The notes beneath the pieces are model-generated. The model made no database searches, was not told the origin of the DNA, and worked only from the letters and a program-made list of their open reading frames with translations. Made by a program: the position numbers and the translations under genes. From positions 1 through 35,650 of the forward strand of contig CAIWTA010000022.1 of assembly GCA_903915465.1 (NCBI GenBank): a stretch of DNA of 35,650 bases, read 5' to 3'. Of this stretch, positions 32,400 to 35,650 are shown piece after piece. This stretch comes from an uncultured Bacteroidales bacterium (GTDB lineage: Bacteria > Bacteroidota > Bacteroidia > Bacteroidales > FEN-979). The stretch's first letter is position 1; every line of letters begins with the position of its first letter.

Positions 32400-33017
32400 A
32401 TGAAAACCTCACGTAATCGGTTTATTCATTGTGTTATGATGACCCTAATCAGCATTCTGTTTGTTCTTCCCTTCACATTGAATGCACAGCAAGAAGGCAC
32501 TTCTAAAGATTCGCGTGATCATCGCGTTTACCAATGGATTAAGATTGGGAATAAAATCTGGATGGCTGAAAACCTCAAGTTTTCCACACAGGCTGGAAGT
32601 TGGGTATACAATAATGATTCTTCCAATCTGGAAACTTTCGGTCGTTTATATGATTGGAACACCGCCTCCACTGCATGTCCAAAAGGATGGAATCTCCCGA
32701 CAGCACTTGATTTGGCATCTTTGATGAACACACTGGGTGGAAGGGACGCAGCTGGCGGAAAATTGCAGCAGATGGACACTACAAACCAAAAAATCAATAA
32801 AAAAATCACTAATACAGGTGCGCTTTCCACACTCCTTGGCGGAATAAGACATAGTGATGGAACTTTCACTGGAATCGGGTTGTGGGGTGGCTACTGGTCG
32901 GGAACATCAACCAATGATGGTGCTACAAACTATCTTTTTGCTCATGGTGACAAAAGCCTCGGGTTAAGTACAAACGATAAAGGTTCCGGCTTCTCTGTCC
33001 GTTGTGTTAAAAAATAA
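32400..33017 (+). CDS. FISUMP-domain (Fibrobacter succinogenes major paralogous domain) secreted protein
   Basis: The 205-aa protein has a long signal peptide (MKTSRNRFIHCVMMTLISIL... to LNAQ) and a single FISUMP domain. The domain has YQWIKIGNKIWMAENL, FGRLYDWNTASTACPKGWNL with a following PTALDLASLMNTLGG, LLGGIRHSDGTFTGIGLWG, YWSGTSTN and GFSVRCVKK. The two Cys of the domain (CPKGW and RCVKK) are present. Such proteins are extracellular or outer-membrane lipoproteins of unknown function in Bacteroidota and Fibrobacteres. No sorting domain or lipobox is visible. Confidence 0.85.
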   Translation: MKTSRNRFIHCVMMTLISILFVLPFTLNAQQEGTSKDSRDHRVYQWIKIGNKIWMAENLKFSTQAGSWVYNNDSSNLETFGRLYDWNTASTACPKGWNLPTALDLASLMNTLGGRDAAGGKLQQMDTTNQKINKKITNTGALSTLLGGIRHSDGTFTGIGLWGGYWSGTSTNDGATNYLFAHGDKSLGLSTNDKGSGFSVRCVKK

Positions 33018-33089: not shown

Positions 33090-34544
33090 ATGGATTGGAA
33101 ACCCAATCATGACGAAGAGTTCAGGAAAAACTTTCAGGAACTCAAACACTTGCTTGACAGTACTTTGAAAAAAATCAAGCAGATAAACGATCTTCGCGAA
33201 GCCAAGGGATTATTAATCAATGTTCAGAACTCCTTTAAAGAGGTAAAACTTCACCGGGATGATCGCGAAGAACTTTATGGCAGGCTGCAAGAGGCATTTG
33301 GTGAAATAAATAAAAAATCGACCGATGAACGAGTGCAATTTGAACACGAAGCTCAATTAAACTATTCTGATTTTAAAATCCGCATAGATGAGGCTGTTTT
33401 TCTCGCCACTAATTCACGGGATTTTCATGAAACCTGGAATTATCTTATAGAAGTTCAGACAAGTTTCAAAGGTGCTAAATTTCTGCGGGAACATCGGGAG
33501 GAACTTTATAACCGTCTGCAAAGTGCTTTTGACATACTTAAGAGAACGCAAACTTTTGAGAAGTCCAGTGAATTTTCGCAATCAACTCAAAACTTTGAAC
33601 GTCTCCATGGGTTGGTTGAAGATGCAGCAACACTTGCTTCAACTTGCTTGGATCTTAGAAATTACCGTGAAGAGATGATCAGGCTCCAGACAACTATACG
33701 TGAAGCCAAACTTGTCAAAGAACACCGGGATGAATTGAATGGAAAAGTCCAGGATGCTTTTCTTATCCTGCAAATCCGGAAAGATGAGGAATTTCAAAAA
33801 ACCAGTGCTGAAGCCACAACCAATTTCCTCAGATATAAACCTCAAGCTGCGGAATTGCTAAAACTATCTGAAAAATCAGTTGATTTCCATTTGGTGCGTG
33901 AAAAGATAAAAACTTTGCAATCAGAAATCCGGAATACGCAACTTCTGAAAGATCAGCGCGAAGAACTTTACAGCCTTTTGCAGGAAGCCTTTGAATCATT
34001 AAGCATCAGACAGGATGAAAACCAAGTAGTGTTCAATAAAGAAGCCAAAAGTAATTATGAACGACTCAAACTCCTCGTGGATAAAGGGTTTGCACAGGCA
34101 GAAGAAACTATCAAGTACAAAGAGACCAGGGAATTTCTAAAAAAGATCCAATCTGAATTTGCAGCTATTAAAATGGTGCGAGAACAGCGGGAAGAGCTTT
34201 ATTCCCGACTCCAATCTGCATTCAATATCCTGAATAAGAGAGTAGATGAATTTTTCAGGGAAAAGAAAAAGAATTGGATGCTGAAGATGCAGTATAAATT
34301 CTCTGAATCTTCAAGCGAAATATTCACGCTCCAACAAAGCCTCGCAAAAGATCAAATTTCATTAGATGAGTTGGAAGATCAATTGGAAATCGTTGTCCTG
34401 GCAGCAAAATCTAAGGAAGTAGTCGCTGGACTACAGTCACGAATAAACTCAACAAAAAAGACCATTGAAAGAAAGCTCCAGGAGATTCAAACACTTGAAG
34501 ACAAAATAAACGATCTGCAGGACCTGGTAGAACCATCAGAATAG
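33090..34544 (+). CDS. Cytosolic coiled-coil protein with five ~75-residue repeats
   Basis: The 484-aa protein has no signal peptide or membrane segment. It contains five repeats, each ending in a REELYxRLQxAFxIL-like segment: DDREELYGRLQEAFGEI, EHREELYNRLQSAFDIL, EHRDELNGKVQDAFLIL, DQREELYSLLQEAFESL and EQREELYSRLQSAFNIL. The repeats are spaced about 75-80 residues apart. Each also has an upstream helix with a conserved F and a xxIQSxF-type stretch. Residues 395-484 form a long coiled coil (DELEDQLEIVVLAAKSKEVV). The REEL/RLQxAF core is reminiscent of DUF349 repeats, which I can only suggest. Function is unknown. The protein is likely elongated and a scaffold or tether. Confidence 0.7.
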   Translation: MDWKPNHDEEFRKNFQELKHLLDSTLKKIKQINDLREAKGLLINVQNSFKEVKLHRDDREELYGRLQEAFGEINKKSTDERVQFEHEAQLNYSDFKIRIDEAVFLATNSRDFHETWNYLIEVQTSFKGAKFLREHREELYNRLQSAFDILKRTQTFEKSSEFSQSTQNFERLHGLVEDAATLASTCLDLRNYREEMIRLQTTIREAKLVKEHRDELNGKVQDAFLILQIRKDEEFQKTSAEATTNFLRYKPQAAELLKLSEKSVDFHLVREKIKTLQSEIRNTQLLKDQREELYSLLQEAFESLSIRQDENQVVFNKEAKSNYERLKLLVDKGFAQAEETIKYKETREFLKKIQSEFAAIKMVREQREELYSRLQSAFNILNKRVDEFFREKKKNWMLKMQYKFSESSSEIFTLQQSLAKDQISLDELEDQLEIVVLAAKSKEVVAGLQSRINSTKKTIERKLQEIQTLEDKINDLQDLVEPSE

Positions 34545-34760
34545 TTTTTATATACTTATCTAACCTTCTTATAAACAAAAATAACTACTCCCCCCTACCA
34601 ATAAGTATAGATTTTTGCACGAATCATTCTGAAAAAATAATAAATATTTTAATATATACTTTACAAACCTAAATTTATTTACTACTTTGGGATCATCACA
34701 GGTATTTCTGCCTGTAATATTTTAAAGCATTAACCACGAAAGGCAAAATATCCACTAACC

Positions 34761-35342
34761 ATGGGTTTTCATAATTTAGTCGAATTCAATGACTTATATT
34801 CCACCGAGGAGATCTGCAGAAAAAAATTATCTCAATTAAGATGGAATGACAATCCTGTTTGTCCTCATTGTCACAATATCAAAGTGTATGAATACAAGGA
34901 CGGAAAACTATACAGATGTGCAAAATGCAGGAGGCAATTTTCAATAAAAGTCGGAACAATATTCGAGGACAGTAGAATTCCCCTGAAGAAATGGTTTACT
35001 GCTATCTACCTTGTCACATCAAATAAAAATGGCACAAGTTCAATACAATTAAGCAGGAATATTGGTGTTACTCAAAAAACGGCCTGGTTTATGCTTCATA
35101 AAATCAGGCAAGAATTTCAAATAAAGTCGAATAGTATTCTAGACGGGACGCAGAAGAAAAACCTCCAGGAGCCCATGATGAAACAGATCGCTAAACCTTT
35201 TGACACTGTATTAAAAAGCCTGATCAAAAATAATTCCACAGAAATACAAGGGCTGAAAGGCATCGTTGAAAGCAAGACATCCCAACAACAAAAACCAACT
35301 TTTAATCGTCCATCAAGGGATTTTGATCCGGAAACAGACTAA
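34761..35342 (+). CDS. IS1595-type zinc-ribbon and HTH protein lacking the transposase nuclease domain
   Basis: The 193-aa protein begins like an IS1595/ISXO2 transposase: an N-terminal helix (STEEICRKKLSQLRWNDN), a zinc ribbon with CPHCH (34-38) and CAKCRR (56-61), then FSIKVGTIFEDSRIPLKKWF and the helix-turn-helix-like LSRNIGVTQKTAWFMLHKIR. In true transposases a DDE domain starting with a VEVDExxxGG motif follows. Here the protein instead ends after about 70 residues of polar sequence (TQKKNLQEPMMKQIAKPF, ... RPSRDFDPETD) with none of the catalytic acids. The stop codon is normal and no terminal repeats are seen. It could be a truncated element or a host-adapted DNA-binding protein. Confidence 0.8.
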   Translation: MGFHNLVEFNDLYSTEEICRKKLSQLRWNDNPVCPHCHNIKVYEYKDGKLYRCAKCRRQFSIKVGTIFEDSRIPLKKWFTAIYLVTSNKNGTSSIQLSRNIGVTQKTAWFMLHKIRQEFQIKSNSILDGTQKKNLQEPMMKQIAKPFDTVLKSLIKNNSTEIQGLKGIVESKTSQQQKPTFNRPSRDFDPETD

Positions 35343-35451
35343 TGTTTTTACTTATTGGTTTATTAATTTGATTTTGATACTTAGCTGCTGTTACAGACTT
35401 CTTCATAACTATCTGATAACCAACAAATATTTTCTCGCCTTGTTTTAGAGA

Positions 35452-35650
35452 CTGTTTAAAAATTTCATTGCGACAATTTCAATTCTTAATGAAATTATCT
35501 TTTTTTACTTTACTTTCTTTTGCTTCCACAAAAAGAAAGTACCAAAGAAAAGGTACTGTGTTAAATTCACTAAAAATTTTCGTCATTCGCTAAACTGCGG
35601 AAACTCGTCGCTGCGCTCCTCAAACAGTCCGCAGTTTTTGACGCTCATTC
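35452..35650. repeat. Repeat element at the right edge (two palindromes)
   Basis: After GACTGTTTAAAAATTTCATT there are two palindromes. TACTTTCTTTT (35511-35521) pairs with AAAAGAAAGTA (35531-35541), and AAACTGCGGA (35592-35601) pairs with TCCGCAGTTT (35628-35637). The words resemble multicopy intergenic repeats of Bacteroidota genomes. The element runs off the window, and no gene is visible from 35343 to the end. Confidence 0.55.

Follow-up and report, generated by a model that had tools for sequence, protein, structure and literature searches.

An open reading frame joining the DNA-binding half of an IS1595 transposase to an accessory-protein-like tail: a probable deletion remnant in a Bacteroidales genome

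Results

An open reading frame close to a contig end

The window, by which we mean the whole stretch of DNA that was analysed, is a complete contig of 35,650 bases (G000:C22), one of 329 in a genome of 4.07 Mb (G000). Near its right-hand end, the forward strand carries an uninterrupted open reading frame (ORF; 34761–35342, stop codon included) that has its ATG at 34761 and its stop at 35342, contains no internal stop, and encodes 193 aa. We describe it below as a fusion of an IS1595-type DNA-binding half and an accessory-protein tail. The contig ends 308 bases past the ORF, and its final stretch (35443–35650) is a dispersed repeat: a query of 35343–35650 gave at least 48 matches in the same genome, itself included (40 of 141 candidates scored), many of them at contig ends. 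This repeat probably breaks the assembly here.

The gene upstream (33090–34544) encodes a 484-aa protein with similar repeated segments, visible as overlapping tblastn matches. Relatives of about 330 aa occur in 6 of 40 other genomes, and the product has no Pfam match above cut-off.

The DNA-binding half is well preserved

An earlier note, made from the DNA letters, described an intact IS1595-type zinc ribbon and helix-turn-helix (HTH), and our analysis bears this out. The zinc ribbon (aa 15–59; 34803–34937, + strand) matches Pfam PF12760, Zn_ribbon_IS1595, with an E-value of 1.4e-14 and 54.2 bits (cut-off 25.4). Its four cysteines, C34, C37, C53 and C56, are intact and fall in nearly invariant columns of alignment A2. 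The HTH region (aa 75–118; 34983–35114, + strand) is modelled as three helices of high pLDDT, and a profile built from 161 full-length relatives aligns to aa 3–130 with an E-value of 6e-61. Block-mean pLDDT in the structure model is 91–98 for aa 11–120 and 49–72 for the tail. Scored with held-out transposase profiles in five-fold cross-validation, the N-terminus reaches 198–201 bits, which places it at the 74th percentile among 185 full-length relatives. Of the 29 columns with ≥85% conservation it matches 28, differing only at position 114, where it has K instead of R. Given the profile score, the kept columns and the confident structure model, the N-terminal half appears undecayed.

The closest relatives of the ORF are full-length transposase genes with 53–58% identity, and in a tree the N-terminus groups with full-length transposases, apart from a stand-alone nuclease-less family described below. 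Loci of relatives were the best 80 of 582 in one search and the best 80 of 132 in another. The DNA-binding half also matches 3 phage and 370 plasmid records. A Foldseek search of the model against the PDB returned nothing at an E-value of 0.001 or better; a sequence search of the PDB gave weak zinc-ribbon matches, the best being ribosomal L37Ae (E-value 0.0012). GC content hardly varies between codon positions in the N-terminal half (0.34/0.35/0.36), in contrast to up484, smpB and M16, although a neighbouring gene, 32400–33014, is nearly as flat; this is at most a faint hint that the ORF may have arrived recently.

No DDE domain is detectable between the ORF and the contig end

The earlier note also stated that the DDE domain is absent, and we agree: no reading frame, from the ORF up to the end of the contig, gave a DDE match above noise, and no leftover was detected downstream in another frame. 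Specifically, the full-length profile runs to position 306, and its positions 133–306 were unmatched above noise in all frames of 34761–35650. The NCBIfam model NF033547 (transpos_IS1595) matches aa 71–128 with its first 61 of 215 positions, at 57.1 bits, under its cut-off of 75. For ten relatives, BLAST alignments made without composition correction extend beyond aa 150 and into the DDE domain. When the tail was compared with those ten DDE parts separately, the score was reached by between 20 (L080) and 985 of 1000 shuffles; the second-lowest value, for L035, was 41 of 1000, far weaker than the accessory match described next. There is still a small chance of a faint DDE trace in the tail.

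The tail resembles a small protein encoded behind IS1595 transposases

The earlier note called the C-terminal part of the ORF a polar tail. A tail with a clean stop is indeed present, but it is not arbitrary. Transposase similarity stops, and similarity to an accessory protein starts, at approximately aa 130–131 (35148–35153, + strand), a junction placed by the profile and by shuffle tests. The tail itself (aa 131–193; 35151–35339, + strand) resembles, by sequence comparison, the accessory ORF found behind IS1595 transposases. The core of the accessory family lies at aa 147–156 and is a short helix in the structure model, predicted with low confidence.

Searching 199 relatives with aa 126–193 gave matches in eight genomes at E ≤0.1, the genome of origin included. 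The best was on G012:C71 (E-value 5.4e-4), and six further genomes fell between 0.05 and 0.1. A per-genome E-value of 5.4e-4 corresponds to about 0.1 across 199 genomes; hence, the case for the tail rests on the shuffle test and on context. Both can be given for G012, which is from the same bacterial family. The local alignment of the two sequences spans 33 columns with 45% identity, and its score was reached in 0 of 5000 shuffles of the tail. What the tail matches there is a separate ORF of 50 aa that follows a transposase remnant (profile positions 253–305, E-value 3.6e-7); the ATG of this ORF overlaps the end of the C-terminal remnant as ATGA. At an E-value of 0.05, the only tail matches among 279 loci were L120 and L154, which are one place in G012, and L121, which is weaker (30% identity, E-value 0.003) and belongs to one of the six weakly matching genomes.

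Small ORFs like the tail also lie behind IS1595 transposases in bacteria of several phyla. A model of the accessory family was seeded with 23 ORFs chosen by eye; it recovers 24 of 161 loci, which is no unbiased frequency since these are mostly its own seeds. When the model was built without the window and G012 and then iterated, the G012 ORF scored 1.7e-4 and the window tail 0.003, with the best of 818 control ORFs at 0.28 and none of the 818 at 0.001; in the first pass of this held-out model, the tail had an E-value of 0.62. With the hand-picked seed model, the tail had an E-value of 0.29 and 6.4 bits, against 6.3 for the best of 500 shuffles, and the whole ORF scored 3.7 bits, under several shuffles. 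In comparisons with single family members, the score of the tail was reached by 0 of 2000 shuffles for L245 and 1 of 2000 for L074, and less clearly for L215 (66 of 2000) and L182 (98 of 2000). An ORF of 28–80 aa starting 4 bases before the stop follows 22 of 161 transposases, as opposed to 10 of 335 other ORFs at the same loci.

Accessory ORFs lie directly downstream of the transposase in L042, L047, L073, L074, L088, L099, L105, L215, L245 and other loci. They encode about 40–70 aa with the motif F-D/E-x-x-hydrophobic and mostly a basic end, and several overlap the transposase stop as ATGA. At L090, L096 and L165, also downstream of the transposase, the accessory motif opens a protein of 181–185 aa; the three share a second part that is absent from the other listed accessory ORFs and may be a cargo that has become attached to the accessory protein. 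We scanned five accessory-type sequences against Pfam, including the window tail, and saw no match at an E-value of 0.1 (the best for the tail was 0.12); the three scanned against NCBIfam had none at an E-value of 1. A search of plasmids with the G012 accessory protein gave no match. Siguier et al. 2009 reportedly gave the IS1595 family its name. At the level of titles and abstract openings, the literature yielded nothing on the accessory ORF, and a description in that paper is possible.

A degenerate left-end-like repeat lies upstream

No inverted repeats had been seen around the ORF in the earlier note. This holds for the right end as far as the contig reaches, 308 bases past the ORF; on the left, there is a degenerate repeat that is the best match in the window. 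Among full-length relatives, 40 of 107 have inverted repeats scoring ≥18 in flanks of 1500 and 2500 bases, as opposed to 0 of 107 shuffled controls. Shorter flanks (300 and 600 bases) missed most of them, with 13 of 158 at ≥14 and one control. Long inverted repeats were present at 61 loci; to build a terminal inverted repeat (TIR) matrix, we used the 38 that fit a core pattern written by eye. The consensus of these 38 loci is GGtAACTATATACTTGacTaACCaAA.

Applied to both strands of the window, the matrix ranks first a site at 34543–34568 that touches the stop codon of the upstream gene. It lies upstream of the ORF and on the + strand, as expected for a left end. When the upstream region was shuffled 2000 times with dinucleotides preserved, 34 of the shuffles (1.7%) reached its score of 5.2 bits, whereas 69 of 186 full-length loci score ≥15 upstream. 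A second, weaker site (34647–34672, + strand), also upstream of the ORF, ranks 14th in the window. Two separated sites at such a level were seen 6 times in 2000 shuffles, and at 5 of the 186 full-length loci. These TIR-like sites would support an element origin, albeit weakly.

No TIR-like site was found downstream as far as the contig end (best score −8.9). Since the last 208 bases are a dispersed repeat, which could hide the right end, that end may sit on another contig. When the left site was searched for across the same genome, no second copy appeared; there was one other match, with three mismatches, and a reversed control pattern gave four matches. A further candidate for the element ends, an inverted repeat of 11 bases near 34597 and 35350, was rejected: 14 of 200 shuffles reach its score, and it is unlike the TIRs of the relatives. 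Separately, three loci in genome G161 (L148, L152 and L153) carry IS1595-like genes of 268–274 aa with inverted repeats around CAATAGATACNTGTTG nearby and without the usual DETY motif; these are perhaps catalytically altered or dead full-length copies.

The whole protein is confined to one genome

We looked for orthologues with the same tail among 199 relatives and 395 genomes drawn from the phylum, and the whole protein was found only in its own genome. Among the 395, the furthest-reaching match stops at aa 158. Outside this genome, then, there are chiefly full-length transposases, the closest relatives of the ORF, and matches to the tail at G012 and, more weakly, L121 (279 loci). The genomic site is likewise not shared, as the ORF was unmatched in all six of the stretches of 6–6.5 kb around relatives of 33090–34544. 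The N-terminus is well kept, but the searches gave no orthologue of the whole protein for a dN/dS comparison.

In the genome of origin (about 99% complete), the whole ORF is covered by nothing other than its own 100% match. The only other matches are a 151-codon frame on contig C283 and a weak match on C236 with three stops; hence, no full-length IS1595 copy or autonomous partner was found in this genome.

A stand-alone nuclease-less family

The frame on C283 (G000:C283:14226–14663, − strand; L285 in alignment A3) belongs to a family of proteins of about 132–150 aa with a zinc ribbon and HTH and no DDE domain. Of 43 genomes sampled from the bacterial family, 40 have it, with one or two copies each; at an E-value of 1e-20, it is found in 86 of the 199 relatives. 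Some lower-scoring matches in other bacterial families are probably transposases because their open frames are about 300 aa long. The 20 loci that we fetched cluster as a single clade (support 0.977), to which neither the window ORF nor the transposases sampled belong. A neighbouring gene cluster is common to 18 of the 20, the copies in G000 and G005 lying elsewhere, and 17 have an open frame bearing the thioredoxin motif WCGPCK. At the two loci inspected closely, this is a divergent thioredoxin pair, followed in L269 by WbqC and FeoAB. In addition to those of the ribbon, four cysteines (C43, C71, C86 and C107) do not vary among the 20.

These features make the family a candidate redox-linked regulator, and it looks truly domesticated. 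The earlier suggestion of domestication thus fits the C283 protein better than the window ORF. At the level of titles and abstract openings, we found nothing on the family in the literature; Siguier et al. 2009 possibly describe it.

DDE-less derivatives at other loci

There were 28 loci with short ORFs, of which we classified 26 after leaving out L021 and L097 (<90 aa). Four run off their contig, and four (L095, L030, L203 and L164) keep the remaining transposase behind a frameshift, insert or stop. Twelve stop before or inside the DDE domain and have unrelated tails; at least two of these, L033 and L034, are members of the stand-alone family. In L178, the deletion is out of frame. The remaining five (L163, L214, L101, L160 and L232) are in-frame derivatives without most of the DDE domain, although assembly errors are possible in single cases since four of them, all but L101, are from metagenomic viral contigs. 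In both L163 and L214, an in-frame deletion connects the N-terminal part with its own C-terminus (0 of 2000 shuffles each). Short C-terminal remnants persist in L101 (9 residues; 0 of 2000 shuffles) and L160 (17 residues; 1 of 2000). In L232, the DNA-binding half is joined in frame to an accessory-like protein (0 of 2000 shuffles). Terminal repeats flank L214 and L228 on both sides; L232 has only the left one, as in the window.

Discussion

We consider it likely that the ORF is a remnant of the left end of an IS1595 element, in which an internal deletion fused the DNA-binding half of the transposase to an accessory gene, and that it is now a leftover with no function. An in-frame fusion by internal deletion is the best reading because the tail resembles the accessory protein behind IS1595 transposases. 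A single deletion would have begun near codon 130 of the transposase and ended around the start of the accessory gene. It would have removed the DDE catalytic domain together with the end of the transposase gene, and would have joined the zinc-ribbon/HTH half in frame to the accessory gene that normally lies behind the transposase, both halves being recognised by their sequence. If translated, the protein may recognise the terminal-repeat DNA of its own element type, but would not cut it. This would leave at most a role like that of InsA, as a competitor and repressor at transposon ends. The likeliest state, however, is that of a jobless and fairly recent leftover, since no full-length partner was found in its own genome; this and the degenerate left end make a leftover likelier than a working repressor. 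The alternatives offered in the earlier note, domestication or recent truncation, thus separate: truncation is favoured, in the form of an internal deletion fused to an accessory gene, and domestication is disfavoured.

Could the ORF instead be a working repressor made by the element population? Here, derivatives that keep the DNA-binding half would be favoured, dampening transposition in trans as InsA does. The in-frame DDE-less derivatives L163, L214, L101, L160 and L232 are consistent with such a process, as is the retention of both terminal repeats by L214 and L228, and InsA of IS1 is described as binding both ends and repressing transposition (PMC12428005). However, no full-length partner was found in the genome of the window ORF, its left repeat is degenerate, and in-frame and out-of-frame derivatives are known only from a sample that is not unbiased. 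We therefore regard a trans-dominant repressor as unlikely for this ORF. Somewhat less likely still is the broader idea that IS1595 transposons repeatedly make DDE-less InsA-like repressors, that fusion to the accessory protein strengthens them, and that the window ORF is one of these. Under this broader idea, the accessory protein would be a regulatory partner.

Retention of the fused protein by the host as a DNA-binding regulator is improbable. The intact frame, the four zinc cysteines and the 28 of 29 conserved columns would fit selection, and a related nuclease-less family has seemingly been retained by its hosts. Yet the whole protein is absent from all other genomes searched, its genomic site is not common to relatives, and its N-terminus clusters with full-length transposases, not with the stand-alone family. 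The flat codon-position GC of the N-terminal half points the same way, though the neighbouring gene 32400–33014 is nearly the same.

It is very unlikely that the assembler joined pieces of one element or of two. The assembly does comprise 329 contigs, and the window ends in a repeat, but neither half has a near-identical second copy in the genome, so there is nothing alike to collapse, and about 500 bases separate the junction from the end of the contig. Least probable of all is a simple frameshift or premature stop with transposase DNA read in the wrong frame, as at L095, L030, L203 and L164, because DDE similarity is nowhere above noise in any frame of 34761–35650 and the tail, as it is read in the ORF, matches the accessory protein.

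A probable fusion by internal deletion replaces a guess of domestication with a traceable event. Two findings outweigh the ORF itself: the accessory protein of IS1595 transposons, and the deletion derivatives that retain the DNA-binding half.

Comparison with known systems

The ORF shares with IS1595 transposons (NF033547, PF12760) the zinc ribbon, the HTH, a left-end-like repeat and an accessory ORF of the same group. It differs from them in that the DDE domain is gone, the right end was not seen, the left repeat is degenerate and the accessory gene is fused in frame.

InsA of IS1 is produced when frameshifting does not occur, within an intact element. Like the window ORF, InsA has a zinc finger and an HTH and no DDE domain. 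In contrast, the window ORF would have been made by deletion and has an accessory tail, and its cognate active element was not found in its genome. InsA binds both ends of IS1 and blocks transposition, and its overexpression in E. coli lowers frameshift-induced IS1 transposition about 600- to 1000-fold (PMC12428005); judging by the title of Siguier et al. 2009, as cited there, IS1595 and IS1 are related.

Non-autonomous deletion derivatives and MITEs also arise by internal deletion of an insertion sequence, and an IS1595-family MITE is listed in PMC3852290. The window element differs in encoding a 193-aa protein and in having a single copy and one end found. A parallel in build is L232, on an IMG/VR contig, which is likewise an in-frame fusion to the accessory-like protein of its own subgroup and has only the left repeat. 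L232 retains a few more residues of the DDE start, and its fusion appears to be an independent event since it involves a different subgroup of both element and accessory protein.

The stand-alone family (alignment A3) has the same IS1595-type zinc ribbon and HTH and also lacks the DDE domain. It differs in forming a separate clade with extra conserved cysteines, in lying mostly near thioredoxin genes and in having no accessory tail. The two therefore contrast: a probable transposon remnant in the window and, linked to thioredoxins, a family for which domestication is likely.
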